A DNA stretch of 8,695 bases from Candidatus Desantisiibacteriota bacterium (GTDB lineage Bacteria; JACRDZ01), in contig JACQWU010000147.1 of NCBI GenBank assembly GCA_016209155.1, forward strand, positions 1 through 8,695, written 5' to 3'. Both the position numbers and the translations under genes were made by a program. A model generated the notes under the pieces. It was not told where the DNA came from. It saw only the letters and a list, made by a program, of their open reading frames with translations, and did not search any database. Shown in pieces: positions 516-8,553 of this stretch (its first letter is position 1; each line of letters opens with the position of its first letter).

Positions 516-541
516 ACAAATGTTTCACGTGAAACATTTGT
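516..541. promoter_or_regulatory. parS centromere site (ParB/Spo0J binding)
   Basis: Positions 521-536 read TGTTTCACGTGAAACA, exactly the widely conserved bacterial chromosomal parS consensus. The symmetry extends five bases further on each side, giving a perfect 26-bp palindrome from 516 to 541. In known systems ParB loads on parS as a CTP-dependent clamp, spreads along DNA and recruits SMC, and ParA moves the complex during segregation. Most parS sites cluster around oriC. Its position 70 bp upstream of rsmG (gidB), a gene that often neighbours parA-parB and oriC, supports the call. No parA or parB is present in the window. Confidence 0.95.
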
Positions 542-1841: not shown

Positions 1842-2900
1842 ATGAAAAAATTTATTAAACAAGAAAAATTAGTTATACTTATAACCGGATTATTAATCGG
1901 AATTTTCGGAGTGTTTTTATTTGTATGGGGGAATCCGCCTCATACAGGTATATGCGTATCATGTTTTTTAGAAAATGTTTCAGGAGCTTTAGGTCTACAT
2001 AACAATTCACGAATGCAATTTTTAAGGCCTGAGATAATGGGTCTTGTTTTTGGCTCCTTTATCACTGCTCTCATTAATAAAGAATTCCGTTCAACTGCAG
2101 GGAACACTCCGCTTATAAGTTTTTTATTAGGAATGCTAATGATTATAGGTTCTTCTGTATTTATAGGCTGTCCTATAAAACTTATGACAAGGATAGGCGG
2201 CGGAGAACTAACTGCATTAATCGGTCTTATAGGATTAATAATCGGGATATGGATAGGGATTCAATTTATTCGCGATGGATTCACACTCGGAGAAAAAAAT
2301 AATGTCTCTAAATTAAACGGGTTTATAATTCCATTTTTAATATTAATTTTTACAATCTTTCTTTTTATAAAACCATTTTTTATTTATTTCAGTAAAACCG
2401 GTCCCGGAAGCCTTCATGCGCCAATTTTAATATCACTTGTAGTCTCGCTTTTTATAGGAGGACTGGCACAGCGTTCACGATTTTGCGTTACCGGAAGTAT
2501 TAGAAATTTTTTACTGGCAGGGGATACTCTTTTACTTCAAGGGCTTTTCATGCTTCTTTTAGGAGCAATTATAATCAGTATTCTTACAAATAATTTTGAG
2601 ATAATACTGTATCGAACTGAGTTTCAAAATGAGTATCTATGGGGATTTCTTGGTATGCTGCTTGTTGGATGGGCATCAGTTTATGCCGGCGGATGTCCCT
2701 TCCGTCAGCTCATTTTGGCCGGCGAAGGAGATACAGATGCAGGAATATGTATCTTAGGGATGCTTTTTGGAGGGGCTATCGTACAAAACTTTTTTATAAA
2801 AACCACATCTTCAGGAATTACTGTTTCAGGGCAAATATCTGTTCTTTCGGGATTTATATTTCTTATTATTACAGGACTTCTATTGAGAGAAAAAACATGA
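1842..2900 (+). CDS. yedE: YedE-family putative selenium transporter (YeeE/YedE membrane protein)
   Basis: This 352-residue polytopic inner-membrane protein consists mostly of hydrophobic spans with short loops. It carries the signatures of the selenium-associated YedE branch of the YeeE/YedE family. These are WGNPPHTGICVSC (29-41), GALGLH (48-53), RPEIMGLVFG (62-71), FIGCPIKL (107-114), RSRFCVTGSIR (211-221) and GGCPFRQLILAGEGD (283-297). Conserved cysteines 38, 110, 215 and 285 lie in or near the membrane spans, as expected for a family that moves sulfur or selenium compounds through a line of cysteines (known for thiosulfate-importing YeeE). The YedE branch is linked to selenium genes in other genomes, but its substrate is inferred. 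YedF and the selD/selA genes are not in the window. The ATG at 1842 follows a pyrimidine-rich stretch with no ribosome binding site, which is odd. The gene overlaps the next by 4 bp. Confidence 0.87.
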   Translation: MKKFIKQEKLVILITGLLIGIFGVFLFVWGNPPHTGICVSCFLENVSGALGLHNNSRMQFLRPEIMGLVFGSFITALINKEFRSTAGNTPLISFLLGMLMIIGSSVFIGCPIKLMTRIGGGELTALIGLIGLIIGIWIGIQFIRDGFTLGEKNNVSKLNGFIIPFLILIFTIFLFIKPFFIYFSKTGPGSLHAPILISLVVSLFIGGLAQRSRFCVTGSIRNFLLAGDTLLLQGLFMLLLGAIIISILTNNFEIILYRTEFQNEYLWGFLGMLLVGWASVYAGGCPFRQLILAGEGDTDAGICILGMLFGGAIVQNFFIKTTSSGITVSGQISVLSGFIFLIITGLLLREKT

Positions 2901-4123
2901 TCATATGTGCCATGTATATAATTACACTTGAAAAAAATTATATTTATAATGGAGCTATCCTTATTAAAGGTGCATTCATACAAGCTATCGGGAAGAAAAA
3001 AAAAATTATGTCATCTTTTCCGGATGAACCTGTTAAAGATATTGGAGAGGCTATTATTTTTCCCGGTTTCATTAATGCGCATACACACTTACAATTTAGT
3101 AAAGTAAAAATAAGCTCTACTCCTGTTTCTTTTACCGAATGGCTTCCAAAAATGATAGCAATAAATAATCGTTTCACACTTTCTGACTGGAAAAAAAGCA
3201 CAAACTACGGAATAAAAAAATTAACAGGGACAGGAATAACAGCTCTGGCTGATATTTCCCGCTCAAAGACAAGCTTCAAAGCTCTCGCTTCTTATCCTTA
3301 TCACTCCTTAATCTTTTATGAAGTAATAGCACCGGATGAACCATATATAAAAAAAATTCTAAAAGATATCAGAAAAAAAATAATATTAAAAGATAAATCT
3401 AAAATAAACATAGGTGTTTCACCACATGCGCTATATTGTTTGTCCTTATCTACTTTAAAACAAATATCATCCTTCGCTAAAAAATATTCAATTCCGGTTA
3501 TGATACATGTAAGTGAAACAAAAGAAGAAATGGAATTAATAGACCGGGGAACGGGGTATTTAAAAGAGCTTATGACAAAAAGGGGATTGAAAATTAAATA
3601 TGGTTATAAAAAAACCCCTGTTGAAATTTTAGCAGAAAATGGCATTTTGAACTCAGATACAATTATAGTTCACGGAGTACATCTTACCAAGCAGGATTTA
3701 TCTCTTTTAAAATATTATAACGCAAGTGTAGTTTTATGCCCGAAAAGCAATAAATTTTTAAAAACCGGAACCGCTCCCGTCCGTGATTTATTTAATACAG
3801 GGATTACTCTGGCTCTCGGAACTGACAGCCTTGCAAGCAATGATTCTTTTAATATGTTTGAAGAAATGCATGAAGTAAAAAAAATTTATAATAAAATACA
3901 TAATAAAGATTTGCTAAAGATGGCTACCTTAAATGGAGCTAAAGCTTTAAATATATCTGCATCTTTGGGAAGTCTGTCTACCGGAAAATTTGCGGATATA
4001 AATGCAGTTAAAATTAAAAAAACAAAAAAATTTGACCCGTATCAGTATTTATGCGAGGAAACAAATATAGAAGATATATCCCTGACAATGATTCGAGGAA
4101 AAATATTTTATTCAAAAACATGA
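2897..4123 (+). CDS. Metal-dependent amidohydrolase, probable deaminase of the MtaD/TrzA/aminofutalosine deaminase type
   Basis: The 408-residue protein has the amidohydrolase TIM-barrel layout. PGFINAHTHLQFS (56-68) gives metal ligands H62 and H64, and FTEWL (79-83) is typical of this branch. SPHALY (175-180) gives substrate-contacting H177, and IHVSETKEE (203-211) gives ligand H204 and catalytic E207. VHGVHLT (258-264) gives H259, and LGTDSLASNDS (307-317) gives D310. These residues correspond to the active site of S-adenosylhomocysteine/MTA deaminase. Related enzymes deaminate aminofutalosine (menaquinone), guanine or triazines, so the substrate is open. It lacks the NTHMH motif of SsnA, the amidohydrolase linked to selenium-dependent hydroxylases. 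The start is set at ATG 2897, overlapping the yedE stop as ATGA, because family members begin at this point. The open frame continues upstream to 2639 only as a shadow of yedE. Confidence 0.85.
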   Translation: MIICAMYIITLEKNYIYNGAILIKGAFIQAIGKKKKIMSSFPDEPVKDIGEAIIFPGFINAHTHLQFSKVKISSTPVSFTEWLPKMIAINNRFTLSDWKKSTNYGIKKLTGTGITALADISRSKTSFKALASYPYHSLIFYEVIAPDEPYIKKILKDIRKKIILKDKSKINIGVSPHALYCLSLSTLKQISSFAKKYSIPVMIHVSETKEEMELIDRGTGYLKELMTKRGLKIKYGYKKTPVEILAENGILNSDTIIVHGVHLTKQDLSLLKYYNASVVLCPKSNKFLKTGTAPVRDLFNTGITLALGTDSLASNDSFNMFEEMHEVKKIYNKIHNKDLLKMATLNGAKALNISASLGSLSTGKFADINAVKIKKTKKFDPYQYLCEETNIEDISLTMIRGKIFYSKT

Positions 4124-6429: not shown

Positions 6430-7809
6430 TTATTTTTCCATTATATATACATTTCCATCTGTTGAAGCAAAAATAAGATAGTTAGATATTAAAACCGGTG
6501 AAGATAAAATAGCTCCATCTGTACTATAATTCCAGATAACTCCTCCTGAGGCTGCCTCAACAGCATACAAATTTTTATCCCATGAACCAAAATATACATA
6601 ACCTCCTCCGACAACCGGCGCAGAAGTGATGTTGCCCAAAGTGGAAACCGCCCATTTCAGTTCCCCTCTATTCTGAGTTAAAGAGTACAGATTATTATCA
6701 TCTGAACCTATGTATATATTAGTACTATCAATAGCCGGAGAAGAATTTATTCCCCCGGATGTTCTATAACTCCATTTTATATTTCCGTTCTTTACATCTA
6801 AAGCATACACAGAATTATTTTGTGCTCCAACAAAAATAAAATTATCATTTGCAGCCGGAGTGGAAGTTATACCGCCTTCACCGGTAAATCGCCATAGGAT
6901 ACTGCCATCATCCTCTCTTAAAGCATACATATCATTATTTATTGTCCCCACTAAAACCCCCATATCAAAGATACACGGCGCTCCCCACATCTTTCCGGAA
7001 GTTTTATATTTCCATCTTAAACCTCCTGTTTGGGCATCTAAAGAATATAGAGTACTGTCAAAACAGCTGATATACAATGAGGTTCTATGAATTACAGGAG
7101 CTGAACTTATTGCCTCTTCGGTAAAAAAATTCCATATTACTTTACCATCTACACATGAAAGTGCATATAAAAAACCAGATTCATCTCCAACATATACAAC
7201 ATTATCCAAGACAGCAGCTGTTCCCAAAAAATTATTCTCCGCTTTAAATTTCCATTTTATTTTTCCTGTTTCAATCTCAATTGCATAAAAATATTTATCG
7301 TTTGAACCTATATATATTATTCCCCTGTCAACTACAGGAGAACTTCTAATTTCTGTTCCACAAGACACCTTAAATTTTAATTTAAAAGGAGGTTTAATAT
7401 TTTTATTTATAGGAATATTACTTGTACGATTATTATCGTATTTGTAGAAAGGCCATGTTTTCTCAGGTATTAAACTAATATTTTTTTGTATTGTATTATT
7501 TTCTATAACAACAGCTTTTTTTATAACTGTTACATAGCCATCTTTTTCAATTTTAATTAAATATGTATCACTTGGTATATTCCTTAATTCAACAGGTGAT
7601 TTTTCAGCTTTTAATTCATTATTCACATACACTTTTGCATCAAGCGGATCTGTAGTTATCATTAAAGAACCTTTATGCTCTAAGCTTTCACCATTTGTTT
7701 CATTATCAAATGATGAACCTGCAGTATCTTCCGCACAATGAACATTATTATTTATAAAAAAAACAATACTGATTATAAATAAAAAATTCAGTGATTTCTT
7801 TATAAACAT
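6430..7809 (-). CDS. Exported PEGA-domain plus eight-bladed PQQ-like beta-propeller protein
   Basis: The 459-residue protein has an N-terminal signal sequence (hydrophobic about 8-20, with a cleavage candidate near HCAED). An acidic linker leads to a PEGA domain (about 47-114, GSLMITTDPLDAKVYVN, with IEKDGY near 87-92). Then follow seven full 40-residue PQQ-like (BamB-type) units from 154 to 433 and a 26-residue half unit at 434-459. Each unit carries an SSP/SAP strand start, a Y-x-G-S/G-type turn, LYAL-like and xGxxxW motifs. The strand FKLKFKVSC (142-150) probably closes the last blade, giving eight blades. Such propellers are scaffolds in the envelope, and PEGA often joins surface or cell-wall proteins. 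No PQQ-enzyme catalytic residues are evident. GAGG, 5 nt before the ATG, and an 18-bp gap from the STAS-PilZ gene indicate one operon. Confidence 0.88.
   Translation of the reverse strand: MFIKKSLNFLFIISIVFFINNNVHCAEDTAGSSFDNETNGESLEHKGSLMITTDPLDAKVYVNNELKAEKSPVELRNIPSDTYLIKIEKDGYVTVIKKAVVIENNTIQKNISLIPEKTWPFYKYDNNRTSNIPINKNIKPPFKLKFKVSCGTEIRSSPVVDRGIIYIGSNDKYFYAIEIETGKIKWKFKAENNFLGTAAVLDNVVYVGDESGFLYALSCVDGKVIWNFFTEEAISSAPVIHRTSLYISCFDSTLYSLDAQTGGLRWKYKTSGKMWGAPCIFDMGVLVGTINNDMYALREDDGSILWRFTGEGGITSTPAANDNFIFVGAQNNSVYALDVKNGNIKWSYRTSGGINSSPAIDSTNIYIGSDDNNLYSLTQNRGELKWAVSTLGNITSAPVVGGGYVYFGSWDKNLYAVEAASGGVIWNYSTDGAILSSPVLISNYLIFASTDGNVYIMEK
6433..7350 (-). repeat. Coding tandem repeat, 120-bp period (propeller blades)
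   Basis: Seven full units of exactly 40 codons and one of 26 codons follow one another without insertions or deletions, corresponding to residues 154-459 of the propeller protein. Each begins with a segment such as ISSAPV, ITSTPA, INSSPA, ITSAPV or ILSSPV. The units have diverged in sequence but keep the exact length. Confidence 0.85.
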
Positions 7810-7827: not shown

Positions 7828-8553
7828 TTACAAAATAGATAAAAATCTGGTTAATTTTAATTCCTCTCTAAATTTCAATCCGATACCCAAAAAATCATTA
7901 CCCTGGTTTACTCTTAGAATATTGCATTCTATCTGTAAATTATCTTTTTTGTCATCTACATTTATTGCTTTTCGTTTACTGGTTTCCAGATAAAGCTCTA
8001 ATATACGGCCATCTCTAATACCCAGACTGAAAAGAGTTTTAAAATCATAAACCTCACTAACATCCGCATATTCAATCCATGCTCCAGAGGTACTTATATT
8101 GCGGGTTAGAGCGTTTGGAAAAATGATATCGTTTAAGTCATCTTTAATAATTATAGCGGCAGATAAACTTATTGACACACGGGGATCCTGTCTTCTGTCG
8201 TTTTCTAATTTGGAAGAAGATTTTATTTCCTCTATGAGTGATTGTACAGCATCTTTTTCTTGGTTGTATATTGTAATTTCTTTATTTACTTTAAAATGAT
8301 GAATATAATTTAATAACCTGGATGGAAAATGTACTAATCTTATCTTTAGTCCATTTTGAATGGCATTATCAATTACATCTACACTCAGAGAATCCATTAT
8401 ATCCACTTTTTCAAGATTAATTACCAGCTTGTCCCTTTTCTGTTTTAATAAATCCTCGAATTTATTACTAAGAATTTCAAGGTCCTTCCCGACGAGATTC
8501 CCATCAATATACAAAACAGTTATAGGCCCAATTTCTTTTTCATTAATTTCCAA
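7828..8553 (-). CDS. STAS-PilZ fusion protein, putative c-di-GMP-responsive regulator
   Basis: The 241-residue cytoplasmic protein has two domains. Residues about 3-112 form a STAS fold (anti-sigma-factor antagonist type): ITVLYIDGNLVG, DKLVINLEKVDIMDS and NGLKIRLVHF. Ser55 stands where SpoIIAA-like proteins are phosphorylated, but the usual SSG after it is replaced by SLS. Residues about 119-238 form a PilZ domain with both c-di-GMP signatures intact: RQDPR (R121 and R125, RxxxR) and NISTSG (N152, S154, G157, the (D/N)xSxxG motif). It may therefore connect c-di-GMP levels to a partner-switch protein; this is inference, and the partner kinase or anti-sigma factor is not in the window. The start is TTG at 8553, supported by AAGGAG 8 nt upstream. 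It is the first gene of an operon with the PEGA-propeller gene. Confidence 0.85.
   Translation of the reverse strand: MEINEKEIGPITVLYIDGNLVGKDLEILSNKFEDLLKQKRDKLVINLEKVDIMDSLSVDVIDNAIQNGLKIRLVHFPSRLLNYIHHFKVNKEITIYNQEKDAVQSLIEEIKSSSKLENDRRQDPRVSISLSAAIIIKDDLNDIIFPNALTRNISTSGAWIEYADVSEVYDFKTLFSLGIRDGRILELYLETSKRKAINVDDKKDNLQIECNILRVNQGNDFLGIGLKFREELKLTRFLSIL

Follow-up and report, generated by a model that had tools for sequence, protein, structure and literature searches.

A candidate chromosomal parS site beside rsmG, enclosed by a decayed MITE-like hairpin repeat copy

The stretch of DNA analysed here (the window) is 8,695 bp long and constitutes the whole of contig C63, from a draft genome of 3.08 Mb that comprises 352 contigs and is 79% complete. 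Towards its left end, a 26-bp palindrome lies between a divergent ORF on the − strand (positions 2 to 277) and a + strand gene that we identified as rsmG by its scores against TIGR00138 (162.4 bits) and PF02527 (159 bits). Judged from the sequence, rsmG most likely starts at position 611, behind the motif AAAGGA and ~70 bp past the palindrome, which thus stands directly upstream of rsmG, as the sequence-only reading had stated. The features of this region are as follows.

298 to 321, + strand: partial sequence similar to the right arm of the repeat family described below (83% over 24 bp against the family consensus), lying close to where the divergent ORF begins; no match to covariance model R1 at an E value of 1
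406 to 434, + strand: promoter-like site (10/12) upstream of the palindrome; weak, as the number of such sites is not clearly above that in shuffled sequence
468 to 584, + strand: repeat copy enclosing the putative parS site (R1, 56.6 bits, E value 1.7e-9; folding z score −3.9)
468 to 520, + strand: left arm and inner sequence common to other copies; positions 491 to 521 are 90% identical to copy L169
516 to 541, no strand assigned: perfect 26-bp palindrome, consisting of the parS core flanked by ACAAA/TTTGT; terminator-like on the + strand, with only 3 GC pairs
521 to 536, no strand assigned: putative parS site with the exact consensus TGTTTCACGTGAAACA; no other site at up to 1 mismatch genome-wide
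542 to 584, + strand: right inner segment and right arm, resembling the TTATGTT...GCTAA segment of copies L179, L219, and L181
611 to 1366, + strand: rsmG (gidB), 16S rRNA m7G527 methyltransferase, 251 aa; Shine-Dalgarno-like AAAGGA at 596 to 601; start chosen from sequence

Farther along the window, positions 1842 to 2900 encode a YedE-type putative selenium transporter (TIGR04112, 383 bits) that overlaps an amidohydrolase gene (2897 to 4123), the product of which resembles aminofutalosine deaminase with a score under the cutoff of that model. On the − strand, a gene for a protein with a PEGA domain and a PQQ-like beta-propeller (6430 to 7809) adjoins one for a STAS-PilZ protein (7828 to 8553).

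The palindrome, ACAAATGTTTCACGTGAAACATTTGT, consists of two 13-nt arms that are 100% complementary and are separated by no spacer. Its core matched the exact 16-bp consensus without a mismatch and conformed to the consensus TGTTNCACGTGAAACA by which chromosomal parS sites of the ParB/Spo0J type are recognized, bearing out the earlier description of an exact parS extended by five symmetric bases per side. Within the window, the core was the sole match to parS at up to 3 mismatches (0.04 expected from shuffled sequences). A search of the whole draft genome, as the sequence-only reading had proposed, revealed no scattered parS copies: the core was again the only site at up to 1 mismatch, and the number of exact copies expected from base composition is 0.0011 in 3.08 Mb. 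This uniqueness applies to a draft that is 79% complete, and further parS sites could be missing from it. Three near-parS sites with 2 mismatches (on contigs C44, C210, and C305) lay inside predicted ORFs, and a reversed control pattern gave 1 match; we did not count them.

We found a single ParB in the genome (C107, 4990 to 5268; 125.8 bits), directly preceded by a ParA with a deviant Walker motif, so that the site shares its genome with a candidate cognate ParA-ParB pair. The sequence-only reading had held that absence of ParB would speak against it and had described the locus as being without parAB, which is true of the window's contig and untrue of the genome. The best solved relatives of this ParB are ParB and Noc proteins. 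At three columns of the recognition helix, which we take to be the ParB-versus-Noc specificity positions, it carries R, T, and G, whereas the aligned Noc chains carry Q, K, and R. It scored 259.8 bits on the NCBI Noc model, below the cutoff of 315, a result that we counted against the parS explanation.

The genes that might be expected together with the site are distributed over three separate contigs, with mnmG on C178, rsmG on C63, and parA-parB on C107. C178 begins with the C-terminal part of MnmG, which is followed by ribD instead of rsmG, showing that mnmG and rsmG are out of their usual order. Because C107 ends at parB and C63 ends 0.6 kb upstream of rsmG, the contigs do not fix how far parS is from parAB. 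By contrast, mnmG, rsmG, parA, and parB form one intact cluster in each of the three phylum relatives that we examined (G001, G002, and G003), in line with the earlier suggestion that gene order had changed in this lineage. Each relative also has a parS site with one mismatch beside rsmG, located at the mnmG end upstream of rsmG in G001 and G003 and at the rsmG end in G002, and the neighbourhood of the site is thus conserved. On contig C21 of G003, cumulative GC skew reaches a local minimum around position 24000, which is ~3 kb from parS; the same contig carries dnaA, ~16 kb from parS. A search for dnaA in the 79% complete draft genome of the window found none. By analogy with the arrangement in G003, the window's parS is likely to be origin proximal.

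The palindrome does not stand alone, a circumstance that the sequence-only reading had not noticed: positions 468 to 584 constitute one copy, now decayed, of a hairpin repeat that is dispersed through the genome. BLAST of positions 440 to 612 against the genome returned >30 partial matches, chiefly to the left arm, and 17 aligned copies yielded the family consensus TTCAGGTGAATAGACTGAAGGTGGAAGGCTTTTAGGTAC...CTAATATCCTTCAGCCTTCAGCCTAAATACCTGAA. Covariance model R1, which was built without the window copy in its training set, recovered that copy when run on the genome. Furthermore, when positions 456 to 600 were folded with the flanks shuffled around the fixed palindrome, none of 1,000 shuffles folded as well as the native sequence. 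Ranking this fold against other parS sites was unusable, because neighbouring parS copies elsewhere pair mutually and give strong scores. We examined 64 places of the repeat in the genome (for example, L168, 1008 to 1103, and L183, 971 to 1060); the copies are ~65 to 150 bp long, lie between genes, and contain CTGAAGG-like heptamers. The family was absent from the three phylum relatives, and we obtained one weak match only in 141 further genomes and one weak match only when the 80 rsmG loci from other bacteria and the loci of the relatives were searched. The confinement of the family to this genome supports the assignment of C63 to it. A second type of hairpin repeat, made of GCAATGAGTAATGAG units and an inverted copy, adjoins, at L253 (~960 to 1080), a left arm belonging to the first family.

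For its many dispersed copies and inverted arms, we call the repeat MITE-like, a label that does not imply mobility. Some copies consist of the left arm alone, and direct repeats at the copy ends are 0 to 5 nt long and not constant in length, giving no consistent target-site duplication. The arms of a copy pair with each other no better than with those of different copies (26.17 versus 26.40 of 35 positions), implying that the copies drift and that the stem is under no visible selection. This lack of covariation speaks against a conserved cis-acting RNA, and a search of Rfam gave no match. The right arm typically ends 15 to 40 nt before the next start codon (26 nt before the ATG at 611 in the window copy). 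Where the flanking genes are codirectional, the repeat is oriented with them in 40 cases and against them in 5, a bias that hints that the repeat is perhaps not entirely passive. MITE-like or intergenic hairpin repeats of the ERIC, NEMIS, and RUP type are known in bacteria. The window's family is like them in its size, its inverted arms, and its dozens of noncoding intergenic copies, and it is unlike them in having a strong orientation bias and no consistent target-site duplication.

The parS site sits near the middle of the window's repeat copy, flanked by inner segments common to other copies. Among the copies examined, only this one contains a palindrome of >12 bp, and parS is therefore not a property of the repeat family. 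The five symmetric bases on either side of the core can be set against 99 parS sites, comprising that of the window, those of the three relatives, and those at 80 rsmG loci of other bacteria. At a random site, the chance of at least 5 further symmetric bases is ~0.0016, whereas 16 of the 99 sites have them (mean of 1.7 and maximum of 8 when right flanks were dealt among the sites), and 8 have at least 8 (0.13 in the same shuffles). Extensions being common at real parS sites, that in the window is not unusual. The apexes of some long-loop copies of the repeat (L178 and L179) resemble ACAAAATTTTGT, so that the ACAAA/TTTGT flanks may, at least in part, be the repeat's own apex, an interpretation drawn from few copies.

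Extended sites elsewhere have a character of their own. Five of the 16 lie just past a gene end (within 60 nt) and are followed by a T-run, compared with 2 of the 83 other sites, and it seems that in some genomes parS doubles as part of a terminator hairpin. At L081, L088, L106, and L124, parS has 6 to 11 extra symmetric bases and then a T-run just past the gene. The extended sites of Lachnospiraceae and related genomes (L106, L108, L124, L128, and L157) are, like that of the window, perfectly symmetric beyond 16 bp, by up to 11 bp per side; unlike it, several are terminator-like behind genes, and none matched the window's repeat family.

Could the window's palindrome likewise be an intrinsic terminator that matches parS by accident? 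It is terminator-like on the + strand, with the tail TTTATGTTTT, and the association of extended sites with terminators is in keeping with such a role. However, no gene ends here, as the upstream ORF is divergent, the stem has only 3 GC pairs, and an exact parS match is far beyond chance; we regard this reading as extremely unlikely. Scarcely more credible is the proposal that the palindrome is merely a variable loop of the repeat with no role in partition. Its position near the middle of the copy would suit that proposal, as would the inner hairpins found in the long loops of two other copies (L234 and L241), but the lack of a comparable palindrome in any other copy argues against it, and an exact parS beside rsmG, as in the relatives, would be a large coincidence. 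It is also very improbable, though somewhat less so, that a mobile hairpin carried or captured a centromere site, such that parS can move with the repeat, or that the 117-bp inverted repeat tunes loading by extruding as a cruciform.

A role chiefly in regulating rsmG, with ParB at parS or a hairpin in the leader RNA lowering expression, deserves more weight than these readings and is still unlikely. The parS site lies between the promoter-like site and the start codon; ParB represses promoters beside parS3 and parS4 in Pseudomonas aeruginosa (PMC5521831), and regulation has been proposed for a parS that overlaps the promoter of gidB in Mycobacterium bovis BCG (PMC2346475). Against this, promoter-like sites do not clearly exceed their number in shuffled sequence, the arms lack covariation, and the relatives carry parS at the mnmG or rsmG end and not in the rsmG leader. 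By analogy with those systems, an effect of ParB on rsmG expression in the window's bacterium is possible. That replication might originate in this very region is suggested by an AT-rich intergenic stretch of 300 bp with parS beside rsmG, and yet this stretch contains no exact DnaA box, the window has 10 boxes at up to 1 mismatch against 12.7 expected, and in G003 three of the four exact DnaA boxes, including a pair 11 bp apart, are near dnaA, 15 to 17 kb from parS. We give this last idea almost no credence.

Taken together, these results suggest that positions 516 to 541 very probably hold a real and ordinary parS site that was kept with rsmG after the breakup of the cluster, a site with its usual neighbourhood and an unusual repeat around it. 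The 16-bp core would be the chromosome's parS, at which the single ParB, made from the parA-parB pair elsewhere in the genome, would load and so mark the region, which is probably origin proximal, for segregation. The breakup of the ancestral mnmG-rsmG-parAB cluster would have left parS beside rsmG, and the site now lies near the dyad of a decayed MITE-like hairpin copy whose family has spread between genes across the genome. We regard the repeat as most likely a passive neighbour rather than a partition element; some of the five symmetric bases added to the core may come from it. Building on the sequence of the site, its uniqueness, the gene content, the conserved neighbourhood, and the repeat membership, all of which we observed, we infer that ParB binds the site, that the site functions in segregation and is origin proximal, and that the repeat is passive. 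We hold with considerable confidence that this account is right as a whole, namely, that a candidate parS served by the sole ParB was retained with rsmG inside a passive MITE-like repeat copy.

This account places a parS site in a poorly sampled phylum. It implies that linkage of parS to rsmG can outlast linkage to parAB, as the site stayed by rsmG after mnmG and, apparently, parAB had left. A chromosomal parS inside a dispersed repeat is unusual and invites the question of how centromere sites withstand or make use of the spread of repeats. A literature search turned up no account of parS within repeats or terminators.

The position of parS beside rsmG has already been described in mycobacteria and Thermus. 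According to Casart et al. (2008; PMC2346475), parS lies directly upstream of gidB (rsmG) in M. bovis BCG and M. smegmatis, where, as in the window, the same 16-bp palindrome occupies the upstream region or 5′ end of rsmG. Unlike in the window, mycobacterial gidB is directly followed by parA-parB, and the passages of that report consulted here describe no hairpin repeat. Thermus thermophilus has a single chromosomal parS within gidB (PMC4409726). That site differs from the window's in lying in coding sequence and adjoining parA, and ParB binding was demonstrated there by gel shift; it resembles the window's in being the only parS (consensus, up to 1 mismatch) and in its tie to rsmG (PMC4409726).
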